From Candidatus Zambryskiibacteriota bacterium (GTDB lineage: Bacteria > Patescibacteriota > Minisyncoccia > Phycocordibacterales > DATDWN01), in assembly GCA_026394775.1 (NCBI GenBank), contig JAPLZY010000031.1, positions 1 through 33,684 of the forward strand: a stretch of 33,684 nucleotides of DNA, given 5' to 3'. The translations under genes and the position numbers were made by a program. The number at the start of each line of letters is the position of its first letter. The stretch's first letter is position 1. Of the stretch, positions 1 through 28,202 are shown one piece after another. The notes under the pieces were generated by a model. It did not search any database and was not told the origin of the DNA. It was given only the letters and a program-made list of their open reading frames with translations.

Positions 1-99
1 CATTCTCAACTTAATCCTCTGATTTTAAAGAAAGAAATTGAACGATTGAAAACCTCGATGTATGATATCCAAAGGAAACTCGGTGGACCTCAGATCTAA
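1..99 (+). CDS. C-terminal fragment of an unidentified protein (…HSQLNPLILKKEIERLKTSMYDIQRKLGGPQI*)
   Basis: Open frame 1 from the window edge to TAA at 97-99; 5' end lies outside the window. Confidence 0.5.
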   Translation, partial: HSQLNPLILKKEIERLKTSMYDIQRKLGGPQI

Positions 100-14443: not shown

Positions 14444-15469
14444 CTATTCTGTAGCTTGCAATACCGGTACTTCTTCTTTCTTTTTAGTCTGATGTGCATG
14501 ACCATCTACTTCATAACTCGTGTTTTGTGCTTCAAAGAAGTTTACGAGTTCAAACACATCGGTCGCAGTCGACATCCATTTTGCTGGGTTTGTCGCTCCG
14601 TAATGCTTTGGAAGACCGAGCTCTTCGAGTCTTCGGTCTGCTACATACTGTACATACTGATTTACATAATCAGCATTAAGTCCGAGAATTCCATTTGGGA
14701 AAAGATCTCTGTTGTAGTCAACTTCTCGATCTACTCCCTCAATCACAATATTTCGAATCTCTGCTGCAAACTCTTCAGTTAAGAGCTCTGCATTTTCTTC
14801 CAAGATATTGTGGATCAAATTCATCCCGAACTTGAGGTGAAGTGACTCATCTCTGAGTACCCAGTTGATCATTGAGCCAAAGTTTCGAAGTTGATTTCGC
14901 TGTCGGAAAGAAAGAGCCACCATGAAGCCCGAGTAAAACCAGATCCCTTCCATTACAATGTTTGTAGCAACCAGGTTTCTGATAAAATCTTTCTTCCCTT
15001 CTACAGTCTCAATATCAAGCGAGTCTTCAGTCATTCGCTTCATGTACTTGTTGATATAGTTTTCTTTTGCAAGCATTGATGGCACTTCGAGGTGAAGTCC
15101 AAAAATAGTCTCACGGTCAAAAGGAAATGTTTCAAGTACGTATTCAAAAGCCACACAGTGGTTTGCCTCTTCCCACATTTGCTTTGCAAGATAAAGGTGA
15201 CACTCAGGAGACTTGATATACGGATACACTCCGAGCGCAAGCGAACGGTTTACGATAAGTTCTGCAGGGTTGAAAAACGCCATCAGAAACTTTACTGCGT
15301 GTTGCTCGTCTGGTGTCATCTTTTCAAAATCCTGCAAGTCTTCGTTGAGCGCAATCTCGTGTGGAAACCATGTGTTTCGCACTGCTTGATTATAGAGATC
15401 ATACGCCCACTTATACTTAATAGGGTGCAAGTTCATATCTTCAGGTGATGCTTTTCCAATTAATGCCAT
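14444..15469 (-). CDS. nrdB: Ribonucleoside-diphosphate reductase subunit beta (class I; Tyr-less, class Ic-like)
   Basis: AELIVNRSL (E70), WEEANHCVAF (E101, H104, F108), IVMEGIWF (E174), RDESLHLKFG (E208, H211). Confidence 0.92.
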   Translation of the reverse strand: MALIGKASPEDMNLHPIKYKWAYDLYNQAVRNTWFPHEIALNEDLQDFEKMTPDEQHAVKFLMAFFNPAELIVNRSLALGVYPYIKSPECHLYLAKQMWEEANHCVAFEYVLETFPFDRETIFGLHLEVPSMLAKENYINKYMKRMTEDSLDIETVEGKKDFIRNLVATNIVMEGIWFYSGFMVALSFRQRNQLRNFGSMINWVLRDESLHLKFGMNLIHNILEENAELLTEEFAAEIRNIVIEGVDREVDYNRDLFPNGILGLNADYVNQYVQYVADRRLEELGLPKHYGATNPAKWMSTATDVFELVNFFEAQNTSYEVDGHAHQTKKKEEVPVLQATE

Positions 15470-22788: not shown

Positions 22789-25605
22789 TTATTTATTTTT
22801 GCGTCGTGTAGAATAGTATACACTACCCGATACAATAATGAGAAGAAGTATCCACAACCAGTAAGTATTGTCCCAATTTCCTGTGAAAAATACTGAAGCA
22901 AGACGATTTTCTTTCTTTACTGTTTCTTTAGTTTCAGTTGCCACGTCTTCAGTTGAAGAAGCGCTTGAAGAGTCAGAGAGCGAACCTGTTTCTGTAGTAC
23001 CAAAAGCTACTTGTGTTTTTACTGATTCGGAATAGTTTTTAGTTGTTGTTGGTGTAGATGTTGATGCTGATGCAGCTGGAGTTTTTTCTGCAGTTTGAGG
23101 TGCAGTATCATCTGCAATACCCCCCACCCCAAGAGCATTACCTCCTGCTGTCGAAGGGTTGCTTGGTGAACTAGCGCCTCCACCTACAAAGCTACCTACA
23201 ATAGGACCATTACCTGCTGGTGCCGGAGTTTCTTTTGAAGAAGGTGTGCCACCTGTTGAGTCTCCGCTGTTGCCTCCACCATTTCCACCTGTTTCAGGGG
23301 TTGGTGTGATTGGGGCTATTGGTGCAACATACACATACACACCAAAATTTTTCTGAAGATAGATATTGCCCGACTCTACAATAAGAGAATATGTACTTGA
23401 AGCAGGAACACTGTACAGAGAACCGGTAGGTGCCGTAATAGAGATTGAGTAAGTAGCAGGAACAAGGTCTGTAAAGACATACTCTCCTGATGCATTTGTC
23501 GTTGTAGTTTGAGAACCAAGAGACACTGCAATATTTGGAAGCACTGCTTCACCTTCATCTTTTACTCCATCTTGGTCAGTATCAGTAAATACAATACCGC
23601 TCACCTGCCCTTTACTCCAGTTTCCGAAATGTCTAGTTACTACATCTCCGAAAGCAAGTGTGACGAAATGTCCCTGTGAACCTCCACAGTCTTCACCTGA
23701 GGCAGGATAAGACTGTGTAAAATTAGGTTGCACTTCTTCACATACTTTATATATTCCCGGATTAAGCTGACCGAAGACATAGCCTGCACCCGTAGTTATC
23801 TTTGAACCAAGATATGTGACCACTTGCATTGAAGTGCTTGTAACAGTAGACTCACCTCCCTCTTCTTCAGAAGGTACAATACTTTCTACTATTTCTTCTG
23901 TAATTTTAAATAGTTTAACAGTCCATCCTGGAATAGAAACATCACTTACTTCAAGCACGCCGTTTGCATTCAGATCGTTAGATACATTTCCTTGGATTAC
24001 TGCAAACTCACCATGGTTGTATGTACATTGAATCTGCGCACCAGGTGCGATAACTAAAGATTCCGCTCTTGGGTCAACAGCCTGACCACCGACAATACAC
24101 ACCGCAGTCTCACCTACTGGCGCTCCATCGAGTATTTCAAGAAGATTGTAGGTGCCTGGAATAATATTTCCAAAGACATGAGACTCACCATTACCAAGTA
24201 CTACCGGTTCAAATGCAATTGGTTCACCGAGTACTCCTGGCTGTGACAAAGTAAATGAATACGTACCTTGTACTGGTTCAATATAATTTGTAACAGAAAG
24301 AGATGCTTTTTTTAGATTTGAAACTGTACAGGTCACCTCTTCTCCAGATGCGAGAGAGATCGAAGAAAGTGTAGTTGACTCTCCAGTATTTGAAATACAA
24401 GTAGTCTCTCCTTGTGCCCACCACGAAGGAAGAGTTTGGTTAAGTGAATATTCACCTGCTACCAAACCTCCAAAAACATATTCTCTCTGACCCGCAAAGA
24501 AAGTATGTGAAGTTGTGGTTGCTGCGTCTTTAAGCAAACTAAATTCAAACGCATCTTCAGTGAGTGTTGGATTTGTTTGGAGTGCTACTTTTACTGCACC
24601 ACCAACAGACACACCGAAATCAGGACCACTTACCATAGCTCCAGACACAGTCACTCGTGCACCATATGTATTACCTGGACAAAGAGCTCCAGACATTGGA
24701 AACTTTTGATATGTTGTATTTAAAGTACTTCGACACACCTTGTATTCACCTGAAGGAAGATTTGGCACAGAATACACTCCATTACTTGTTGTTGTAGCAG
24801 TGATAACACCTGTTTCATTGTAAACCCATATAAGCTCATCTGCTTGAGGTAGTTCACCTTCATCTTTTACTCCATTTAGGTTAAAATCATTCCATACGTT
24901 TCCTGTAATACCTCCTGCATTGTGACGATAGGTAACTTCAAGATATGGTTTACATGACTCACTTGGAGTACCGGCACAAAGACCAGTTTGGTCTGTATAT
25001 TCTCGTGATCGGAAAATTCCAAAATTTGTAGAACCTGAGGCACTTTCAAATCTATCTTTAATAACCCATCCGTTATTTGTAGATACTCCCGCAAGGATAT
25101 CTTTAACATCTGCAGTTACGTCAAATAGAACCCATGTATTTATACCCGGAGCAATACCAGTTACAGAAATAGGAATACCAAGTGTGTTTGGTTGATTATT
25201 CCAGTTAATTAGTGCTTCTGTCCACGCAGTATTAAGCTTACTAATACTATAAATTCGATAGTTTTGCATACTTTGCATATACATATGCAATTGCACAGAC
25301 TCAATGACTGCACCAACTGGAAGTACTGGCGTATTTGCTTGTATAAAAACCCTCTGGTTTTTACCCCTCAATGAATTTACTTGAATATTCTCTGCAGTGC
25401 CGTAGTTTAGAGTATTTTTGTCTCCTGCCACATCTTGATCTACGTATGAGTCCTGAAGGAGAGTTGTATCGTACACAGTATGAAGATCGGGATCATTTAT
25501 TGGCGCTATTGCATATACAACAAGAGGACTTGCTTGTGCAAAGAGCATAACAAAGAAACCTACGAAGGCGAGACCTTTTTTGATAGATGCTGGAAATGTG
25601 TTCAT
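22789..25605 (-). CDS. Large surface protein: DNRLRE-like domain, SdrD B-like/SpaA-like repeats, Ser/Thr/Pro tail, C-terminal TM
   Basis: Signal peptide; DSYVDQDVAGDKNTLNYGTAENIQV; GNVWNDFNLNGVKDEGE and GIVFTDTDQDGVKDEGE repeats; WLWILLLIIVSGSVYYSTRRKNK. Confidence 0.88.
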   Translation of the reverse strand: MNTFPASIKKGLAFVGFFVMLFAQASPLVVYAIAPINDPDLHTVYDTTLLQDSYVDQDVAGDKNTLNYGTAENIQVNSLRGKNQRVFIQANTPVLPVGAVIESVQLHMYMQSMQNYRIYSISKLNTAWTEALINWNNQPNTLGIPISVTGIAPGINTWVLFDVTADVKDILAGVSTNNGWVIKDRFESASGSTNFGIFRSREYTDQTGLCAGTPSESCKPYLEVTYRHNAGGITGNVWNDFNLNGVKDEGELPQADELIWVYNETGVITATTTSNGVYSVPNLPSGEYKVCRSTLNTTYQKFPMSGALCPGNTYGARVTVSGAMVSGPDFGVSVGGAVKVALQTNPTLTEDAFEFSLLKDAATTTSHTFFAGQREYVFGGLVAGEYSLNQTLPSWWAQGETTCISNTGESTTLSSISLASGEEVTCTVSNLKKASLSVTNYIEPVQGTYSFTLSQPGVLGEPIAFEPVVLGNGESHVFGNIIPGTYNLLEILDGAPVGETAVCIVGGQAVDPRAESLVIAPGAQIQCTYNHGEFAVIQGNVSNDLNANGVLEVSDVSIPGWTVKLFKITEEIVESIVPSEEEGGESTVTSTSMQVVTYLGSKITTGAGYVFGQLNPGIYKVCEEVQPNFTQSYPASGEDCGGSQGHFVTLAFGDVVTRHFGNWSKGQVSGIVFTDTDQDGVKDEGEAVLPNIAVSLGSQTTTTNASGEYVFTDLVPATYSISITAPTGSLYSVPASSTYSLIVESGNIYLQKNFGVYVYVAPIAPITPTPETGGNGGGNSGDSTGGTPSSKETPAPAGNGPIVGSFVGGGASSPSNPSTAGGNALGVGGIADDTAPQTAEKTPAASASTSTPTTTKNYSESVKTQVAFGTTETGSLSDSSSASSTEDVATETKETVKKENRLASVFFTGNWDNTYWLWILLLIIVSGSVYYSTRRKNK

Positions 25606-25780
25606 AAACAGTGGACAAATATTAACTCTGATTGTGTAATGAATCCCACCTTACTATGAAATAGATTATTGTCAAGCACTTTACAAGTTTTAAATACTAT
25701 GATAGGGTCCTCTCCAGACATCAGGAGGGACCTTAATTCGAAAAAGGTCCCAAAATACAACCTGATACGAGGAGTTTGAA

Positions 25781-26488
25781 ATGAAAACATTGAAAAAGAT
25801 GAGTGCAATCTTTGCACTCATGACAGCTTCTGTTGTAGGCGCTTTTGCGGCGCCTTGCCAGATGAGTGCGACGTACGACGTGTTTATGTCCGGCGGTGCT
25901 TGCACTGTCGGAAATATTGAGTTCTCGCTCTTTACATTGGTCTCGACGGCCAACCCCAATGCGAACATTATTCCAGCAAACAGCATCAATCTCACGCTCA
26001 ACAACCTCATTGCCGGCCAGATCGGCATGCAATGGAATCTGGGAATGACTGCGAGTGGCGCCGGAAACTTTCAGGACACCTATTTCACCTTTATGCTAAG
26101 AGGCCTCAATGGCCTCATGTTTACTGGTGACCAACTGTCGTTCAACGGCAGCGCGACAAACGGTGGGACAACAGGAGTTTCTTCTGTGGTTTGTACCGGA
26201 GGTGCACCCGTTAACGGCTGTGCTCCGGGGAACACCTACCAAGCATCGGTTTTCAACCCACCGGTGGTGCTGACAGATACGGTGATGTTTCCGGCGTCCA
26301 GCATCATCAATGCTTCCAAAGACTTTATAGTCGCAGGAGCAGGAAGTGGACAAAATGTCGGGACAGGGCAAATCTCCCGGGTCAACAACAACTACTTTTT
26401 TGTTGAAACCGCGGTCCCCGAACCGGCCACCTACGCCCTCCTCGGCGCCGGACTAGTCGCTCTCGGACTTTTCCGGAAACGCAAATAA
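25781..26488 (+). CDS. Secreted PEP-CTERM domain protein
   Basis: Signal peptide MKTLKKMSAIFALMTASVVGAFA and C-terminal VPEPATYALLGAGLVALGLFRKRK; SD GAGGAG upstream. Confidence 0.9.
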   Translation: MKTLKKMSAIFALMTASVVGAFAAPCQMSATYDVFMSGGACTVGNIEFSLFTLVSTANPNANIIPANSINLTLNNLIAGQIGMQWNLGMTASGAGNFQDTYFTFMLRGLNGLMFTGDQLSFNGSATNGGTTGVSSVVCTGGAPVNGCAPGNTYQASVFNPPVVLTDTVMFPASSIINASKDFIVAGAGSGQNVGTGQISRVNNNYFFVETAVPEPATYALLGAGLVALGLFRKRK

Positions 26489-26514
26489 ACGAAGGACTAA
26501 TCCTTCCCAACCAA

Positions 26515-26550
26515 CAACCCCTCGGCTTCACCGCTCAGGGGTTGGTTTTT
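26515..26550 (+). terminator. Terminator after the PEP-CTERM gene
   Basis: CAACCCCT…AGGGGTTGGTTTTTT. Confidence 0.8.
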
Positions 26551-26563
26551 TATACAAAAAAAA

Positions 26564-26582
26564 ACATAGGGGACCCCTATGT
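26564..26582. repeat. Perfect short palindrome
   Basis: ACATAGGGG-A-CCCCTATGT flanked by A run and ATTTTT. Confidence 0.6.
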
Positions 26583-26665
26583 ATTTTTAGCTTTTTAAAG
26601 ACAGGACCCTTTACTATCTTGATTGAGAAAATAAAATCGCTTTTTTAAGAACTTTCAGATTTGAC

Positions 26666-26720
26666 ACCACAAGAGTACTTCTTGTTTTCTAAGAAGATTA
26701 CTTCTAAGAAACCAAAGTCG
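26666..26720. repeat. 55-bp direct repeat, copy 1 (internally palindromic)
   Basis: ACCACAAGAGTACTTCTTGTTTTCTAAGAAGATTACTTCTAAGAAACCAAAGTCG. Confidence 0.85.
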
Positions 26721-26732
26721 GACAGGGGTCGC

Positions 26733-26799
26733 GTATAAAATTTAAAAAAGATCGGAGACGTGCTTACTGGTACGTTGAGAACTTTTTTAAATTTTATAC
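26733..26799. repeat. 18-bp perfect inverted repeat between the two direct repeats
   Basis: GTATAAAATTTAAAAAAG (26733-26750) / CTTTTTTAAATTTTATAC (26782-26799). Confidence 0.9.
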
Positions 26800-26852
26800 C
26801 ACAAGGGTACTTCTTGTTTTCTAAGAAGAGTACTTCTAAGAAAACAAAGTCG
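26798..26852. repeat. 55-bp direct repeat, copy 2
   Basis: ACCACAAGGGTACTTCTTGTTTTCTAAGAAGAGTACTTCTAAGAAAACAAAGTCG; 132 bp from copy 1. Confidence 0.85.
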
Positions 26853-26879
26853 AACTGAGATTGACTAAATGTGGAAGTT

Positions 26880-28130
26880 CTATCGAAGCTTGGTAATATC
26901 TCTGGGAAAAAAGAGAGCCCTGGTCCACTCAAACATAATCCCCCAGCGTTTGTTCCATGAATTAAATTTAAATAAATAGACTGTTCGCCAGATCCACCAC
27001 ATCAGTCTTCCTGAAAATGCCATACCGAAAATAGTACCTACTGCATACCACTGACCCAGAGAAACCAGAGTTCCTTTGGATGCATAGGTAAATGCTTTGA
27101 GAGGTCGGTTTTTTAGAGATGCAATAATGTTGTATGCCACCACCTCTGCTTGTTGGACAGCCACTTGAGCAACTGTAGGGTACCCTTTGCCATCTGGAGA
27201 TTCCACTAAAGCTACGTCTCCCAAACCAAAAACATCAGCATGCTCTACAAGAGCAAGCTCTTTTGTTACTTTGACATGCCCCATCGCCATCAAAACCTCT
27301 TCTTTAAATGGCGGAAGTATCGGTGTCACTCCGGCAGACCAGAAGATAAAGCGAGCAGAGAGCATCTCATTTGGAGAAAAAAGTATTTTGTCTTTTTGCA
27401 CTTCTGTTACCGGCATTCCGAGATGAAGCACCACACCCAACACGTCGAGGCGTTTTTTTGTCTGTATGCGCAATGACAACGGAAGCATACTCAAAAGCTC
27501 TGGGCCGGTGTTGAGCAAATGCAGGCTGTAGTCGCCTTCTTCGATACGAGTGCTTCCCTTAAAATGTCTGGTGTATAGTTCACAAGTAAACTCTGCAAGT
27601 TCGGAGACCATCTCCACACCGGTCGCACCTCCACCCACCACCACAAAAGTGAGCTGTTTTTTACGCTCAAGAGTGTCTTCCATGCACGCTGCATCTTCAA
27701 AAGCATCAATGATTTCTTCTCGAATTGAGAGAGCGTCTGAAAGAGTTTTGAGCACCCGTGTGTACTCTTGCGCACCAGGGATATTGTAATAGTTGGTCTG
27801 TGCACCGGTCGCCACCACAAGCCTGTCGTAAGACATCATGTGTCCATCAACAGAAAGATTTTTATCTGCCAGATGTATCGCATCTACAACACCCTGGATA
27901 ATACGCACACCTGTCCCTTTAAAAATTTCTCTTAAAGACTCAGTAGTCGAATATGAACCCAGTCCCCCTGTAGCTACTTCGTGCAAAAGCGGAGTGAAAA
28001 GAAAATAGTTTGTCTTGTTTATGAGCGTAACTTCGATCAAACCTTGTTTTACAAAAGGAACAAGCATTTGTGCCGTATACACTCCACCAAACCCCCCTCC
28101 GACAATAACTACGTGTGATTTTTTCATCAT
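26880..28130 (-). CDS. ndh: Type II NADH dehydrogenase (FAD-dependent NAD(P)H oxidoreductase)
   Basis: VVIVGGGFGGVYTAQML, FVVVGGGATGVEMVSELAE, DVFGLGDVALV. Start 28130 or 28127. Confidence 0.9.
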   Translation of the reverse strand: MMKKSHVVIVGGGFGGVYTAQMLVPFVKQGLIEVTLINKTNYFLFTPLLHEVATGGLGSYSTTESLREIFKGTGVRIIQGVVDAIHLADKNLSVDGHMMSYDRLVVATGAQTNYYNIPGAQEYTRVLKTLSDALSIREEIIDAFEDAACMEDTLERKKQLTFVVVGGGATGVEMVSELAEFTCELYTRHFKGSTRIEEGDYSLHLLNTGPELLSMLPLSLRIQTKKRLDVLGVVLHLGMPVTEVQKDKILFSPNEMLSARFIFWSAGVTPILPPFKEEVLMAMGHVKVTKELALVEHADVFGLGDVALVESPDGKGYPTVAQVAVQQAEVVAYNIIASLKNRPLKAFTYASKGTLVSLGQWYAVGTIFGMAFSGRLMWWIWRTVYLFKFNSWNKRWGIMFEWTRALFFPRDITKLR

Positions 28131-28202
28131 ATGTTTTTTAGTATAACAAGAAAACACTCCAGGTGCACAAAAACGCAATTTTTACGCAAGACCAATTTCA
28201 GT

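Follow-up and report, generated by a model that had tools for sequence, protein, structure and literature searches.

The locus and its protein

The window analyzed here, a stretch of 33,684 nucleotides, belongs to a 753-kb genome in 32 contigs, estimated to be 99.7% complete with 0.06% contamination; the phylum-mates listed span 0.4–1.7 Mb. Loss of ribosomal protein uL30 is a CPR marker, and uL30 (PF00327) is absent from this genome and present in 14 of 14 control genomes. Small size and lack of uL30 are those of a CPR (Patescibacteria) genome, probably that of a symbiont. Between a surface-protein gene and a gene for an NDH-2-like oxidoreductase lies an intact reading frame for a PEP-CTERM protein (Table 1). 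The initial annotation had read this gene as encoding a PEP-CTERM protein with a signal peptide, served by its own Shine–Dalgarno sequence and terminator and divergent from a surface adhesin gene, all of which we confirmed. Its G/C counts, 34 of 60 nucleotides at 26161–26220 and 24 of 60 in nrdB at 15121–15180, are exact.

Table 1. Features at the PEP-CTERM locus, in window coordinates.
Feature	Position	Strand	Basis
Divergent native surface protein, DNRLRE/CBM96 and SdrD-B repeats	22789..25605	-	Pfam/NCBIfam profile matches; hydrophobic segments
Candidate sigma-70 promoter TTTACA-17-TAGGGT, TGA before the -10	25680..25708	+	Sequence
Shine–Dalgarno region ACGAGGAGTTTGAA ahead of ATG	25766..25780	+	Sequence; AGGAG
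PEP-CTERM protein gene, orphan, 235 aa, foreign composition	25781..26488	+	Above the PF07589 and TIGR02595 cut-offs; GC 0.521, mean of genes 0.410
N-terminal signal peptide region MKTLKKMSAIFALMTASVVGAFAA	25781..25852	+	Hydrophobic residues 7–26 behind basic n-region; sequence inspection
PEP-CTERM tail VPEPATYALLGAGLVALGLFRKRK: PEP motif, TM helix, basic tail	26411..26485	+	PF07589 positions 1–23 of 24
Intrinsic terminator of the PEP-CTERM gene	26514..26552	+	Terminator scan; fold -18.4 kcal/mol
Bidirectional terminator-like hairpin, native-type DNA	26564..26582	.	Scan; similar sequences elsewhere in own genome
NDH-2-like oxidoreductase, right flank	26880..28178	-	Pfam; syntenic in same-genus genome lacking the PEP-CTERM gene

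The assignment rests on the C-terminal 24 residues, in which a PEP motif, a hydrophobic helix, and a basic tail (...TAVPEPATYALLGAGLVALGLFRKRK, with the ending also given as AVPEPATYALLGAGLVALGLFRKRK) score above the curated cut-offs of both PF07589 (E 1.2e-6, 28.8 bits, cut-off 20.7) and TIGR02595 (25.5 bits, cut-off 16). Judged by hydropathy alone rather than by a dedicated predictor, residues 7–26 and 216–232 are the only hydrophobic segments, leaving an N-terminal signal peptide and no intervening TM segment. The best NCBIfam match was floc_PepA (NF033554; residues 122–235, E 7.6e-11), at 42.3 bits against a cut-off of 80. When the tail was removed, the body matched no NCBIfam model, floc_PepA included, so the weaker whole-family PEP-CTERM matches depend on the tail. 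The protein also scored under the cut-off of VPLPA-CTERM (TIGR03370). AlphaFold2, run from the single sequence, returned a pLDDT of 34.5, too low for use beyond a hint of a β-rich body.

The candidate promoter falls outside the strict TTGACA pattern used below and is a weaker match than the promoters of its relatives. No sigma-54-like -24/-12 site, the upstream motif associated with PrsR and confined to Proteobacteria, was found within 300 nt upstream of the gene. A stable hairpin (25703–25735, -18 kcal/mol) coincides with the putative transcription start, and an Rfam scan gave nothing above the gathering score. The neighboring surface protein ends in a C-terminal TM segment and an RRKNK tail (...WLWILLLIIVSGSVYYSTRRKNK) and contains no sortase motif; a C-terminal helix followed by a basic tail is thus an anatomy that it shares with the PEP-CTERM protein.

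Foreign composition and an empty site

Composition was computed over 752,759 of the 752,968 genome bases and 759 ORFs. The PEP-CTERM gene has a GC content of 52%, ranking 8 of 759, against a mean over the ORFs of 0.410 (SD 0.042), with a GC3 z of 2.9 and rank 14 among the same ORFs by codon-choice score; only 3 of 1042 gene-sized genome windows reach its GC. A GC-richer island had been proposed at 25690–26585. The foreign composition holds, while the limits narrow to about 25780–26545, approximately the CDS and its terminator. From the hairpin at 26564 rightward the DNA is native-like, placing the right boundary of the island before it. Since this hairpin and a palindrome of about 70 bp further right both have relatives elsewhere in the genome, the foreign segment is best described as CDS plus terminator. 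The palindromic element (26727–26799) recurs as at least 9 further, diverged copies in the genome, apparently a dispersed family of native repeats; it is flanked by a 71-nt direct repeat (89%; 26653–26723 and 26785–26855), a further copy of which lies in L112 at 15073–15162.

About 15–20 singleton ORFs in this genome are GC-rich and codon-odd like the PEP-CTERM gene, and among 10 foreign-looking ORFs scanned, one had a Pfam match above cut-off. The most codon-atypical ORF of the genome (32025–33341, minus strand, GC 0.51) is a second foreign-looking gene on the window contig and matched no Pfam family above cut-off. Elsewhere, L097 (3628–4479) and L113 (4304–4861) each carry one member of a GC-rich pair of paralogous ORFs, and the L097 protein has the C-terminal domain of RNA polymerase alpha (PF03118) at its end.

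The one same-genus genome in the comparison (G001) carries, on contig C59, a sigma factor gene, an NDH-2 gene, a 160-bp spacer, and a surface-protein gene. Its NDH-2 is 59% identical to that of the window, and its surface-protein gene lies on the strand it has in the window and encodes another type of protein. With the PEP-CTERM gene absent from the corresponding site, this arrangement is the empty configuration of the insertion site. Also in G001 (L044, 4498–4707), a short reading frame ending in an IPEP tail sits between groEL and a LemA-like gene and is perhaps the remnant of another PEP-CTERM gene.

Horizontal transfer into this CPR genome, as the initial annotation proposed, is well supported by the foreign composition, the empty site within the genus, the single tail, and the absence of exosortase and uL30. 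The qualifiers "recent" and "from a host" fared worse: the search for a donor homologue came back empty, and two PEP-CTERM families persist at syntenic positions in genera other than this one, leaving both unsupported. Searches of genome contigs with the window protein and with the exact tail motif returned nothing, as did searches of plasmids, phages, and viral contigs, so we name no donor phylum. Nor do we propose transposon or cassette mobility, because an 11-nt inverted repeat (25704–25714 and 26600–26610) was no better than those in shuffled sequences (6 of 40) and consistent mobile-element termini were not found at other PEP-CTERM loci.

Orphan PEP-CTERM genes across the order

Among all ORFs of the window genome, exactly one was found by text scan to have a full PEP-CTERM tail, and neither an exosortase (PF09721) nor a sortase was matched in this genome. 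Bacteria with the PEP-CTERM/exosortase system encode a median of 8 PEP-CTERM proteins per genome (Haft et al. 2006, PMC1569441). Across the order, PF07589 scored above cut-off in 43 of 397 genomes (~11%), usually once or twice per genome and at ~0.14 hits per genome overall. PF09721 exceeded its cut-off in 0 of the 397, and TIGR04178 in 0 of the 43 PEP-CTERM-positive genomes; as a positive control, the Pfam and TIGR exosortase models reached the Methanocaldococcus archaeosortase. With the exosortase search negative and a single tail, the idea of a native system with many PEP-CTERM genes and an exosortase is unsupported. A sample of 287 genomes from the phylum contained 8 with PEP-CTERM, 4 with exosortase above cut-off, and none with both; the four exosortase-positive genomes (L158, L159, L160, L161) lack a PF07589 protein.

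This recurrence of exosortase-less PEP-CTERM genes is a finding added to the original proposal. That proposal had called such systems unexpected in CPR; orphan genes recurring across the order mean that the window gene is no isolated oddity. No report of PEP-CTERM in Patescibacteria/CPR was found in the partial literature collection searched.

The bodies of the order's PEP-CTERM proteins are mostly unrelated to one another, and none of the other genomes searched has a close homologue of the window protein. Full-length members have a GC of 0.42–0.65, almost always above their flanks, and the mean profile runs from ~0.40 upstream to 0.59 in the CDS and 0.37 within 50–100 nt past the stop. Two congeneric pairs retain a family in place: between groES and secG in G025 and G108 (55% identity, pN/pS 0.47), and at a syntenic site after nusG in G179 and G379. 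Synonymous sites are near saturation, so only retention and pN/pS were used for these pairs, not dN/dS. Two further genomes (G334 and G367) hold small expanded families, several members of which bear a VPLPA-type tail. Tail-only short ORFs resembling remnants occur in G027, G085, and G001.

Strong promoters of the sigma-70 type precede many of these genes. TTGACA-15..19-TAnnnT occurs within 150 nt upstream of 17 of the order's 38 full-length PEP-CTERM genes (mean of 0.2 in dinucleotide shuffles), against 11 of 265 neighboring ORFs with free upstream DNA (Fisher p 1e-10, with crude ORF calling). About 8 of 27 other foreign-looking genes also have strong promoters, so these promoters characterize single foreign genes that have been retained and are not special to PEP-CTERM. 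Proteobacterial PEP-CTERM genes typically have a sigma-54 motif; in the order, all but one of the upstream regions lack it.

Origin, likely role, and relation to known systems

The reading we favor, with modest confidence, is that the window gene encodes a single-gene PEP-CTERM protein gained by horizontal transfer into an exosortase-less CPR genome, one case of an order-wide recurrent pattern, with its tail acting as a plain membrane anchor. The foreign CDS would have entered the intergenic site between the surface-protein gene and NDH-2, and would be transcribed from the sigma-70-type promoter at the boundary. Sec would export its product, with cleavage of the signal peptide. The known route of tail processing is closed without an exosortase, and the PEP-CTERM helix and RKRK tail could act as an ordinary stop-transfer anchor, so that the protein would stay in the cytoplasmic membrane with its body displayed outside and uncleaved. 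We infer this export, topology, and anchoring, together with a role in surface interactions. That roughly one in ten sampled relatives in the order likewise carries PEP-CTERM genes and lacks the processing enzyme suggests that the tail may serve as such an anchor.

A broader and more tentative proposal, to which we give rather less than even credence, is that CPR of this order repeatedly recruit PEP-CTERM genes from exosortase-bearing neighbors as ready-made tail-anchored surface proteins under their own strong promoters. If true, the PEP-CTERM signal would have an exosortase-independent life, breaking the co-occurrence rule behind the system's discovery, and the recruited proteins may help CPR attach to their hosts' matrix or surface.

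Neutral capture is the serious rival, and we regard it as possible though not probable. CPR would take up DNA at random and occasionally catch PEP-CTERM genes, which are frequent in some environmental bacteria, as functionless passengers to be lost. The foreign-looking singletons of the window genome show how random capture could supply an occasional PEP-CTERM gene, and the observed hit rate per genome fits PEP-CTERM genes being an estimated ~1% of captured genes. Remnant-like ORFs fit the same account, which is possible for the window gene in particular because there is no close homologue elsewhere with which to test selection; strong promoters at other foreign-looking genes and the weaker window promoter count against the favored reading. 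Against it stand the promoter association in the order, syntenic retention across large divergence in two lineages, the small expanded family in G334/G367, and the intact window ORF with its Shine–Dalgarno sequence and terminator.

A native, highly divergent exosortase-like enzyme that processes these proteins is improbable. The exosortases of the few positive CPR genomes show that the phylum can harbor the fold, yet models sensitive enough to reach an archaeosortase found nothing above cut-off in PEP-CTERM-positive genomes, and in the phylum sample the two sets of genomes do not overlap. Least probable of all is an assembly join, chimera, or contamination by a bacterium of the same sample that is rich in PEP-CTERM genes, suggested by the sharp composition edges and fragmented assembly, since two joins would be needed within 0.9 kb with genes intact and native-type DNA on either side, estimated contamination is 0.06%, and the pattern recurs in 43 genomes, one of them (G018) a single 982-kb contig and others in contigs of 0.2–1 Mb.

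CPR are generally held to be without a canonical outer membrane, and to our knowledge PEP-CTERM has been found solely alongside exosortase, in two-membrane bacteria. The order examined here is a clear exception to that co-occurrence. Orphan PEP-CTERM genes may mark gene flow from exosortase-bearing bacteria to CPR, perhaps pointing to hosts, and offer a testable idea for how CPR acquire surface proteins. They also warn against inferring exosortase systems in metagenome bins from PEP-CTERM counts alone.

Among known systems, the closest is PEP-CTERM/exosortase (EpsH/XrtA; Haft et al. 2006, PMC1569441), with which the window gene shares a signal peptide, a variable body, the C-terminal PEP motif, TM helix, and basic tail, and a single-gene transcription unit. 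It differs in the lack of an exosortase, in having one copy rather than many, in its CPR lineage, and in a promoter of sigma-70 rather than sigma-54/PrsR type. Flocculation-associated PepA resembles it as the best NCBIfam match, albeit a tail-dependent one at about half the cut-off score, and VPLPA-CTERM describes the tail variant of the G334 family rather than that of the window protein. LPXTG/sortase-anchored surface proteins have the same tripartite C-terminal anatomy, whereas the window protein has no LPXTG motif and its genome no sortase.
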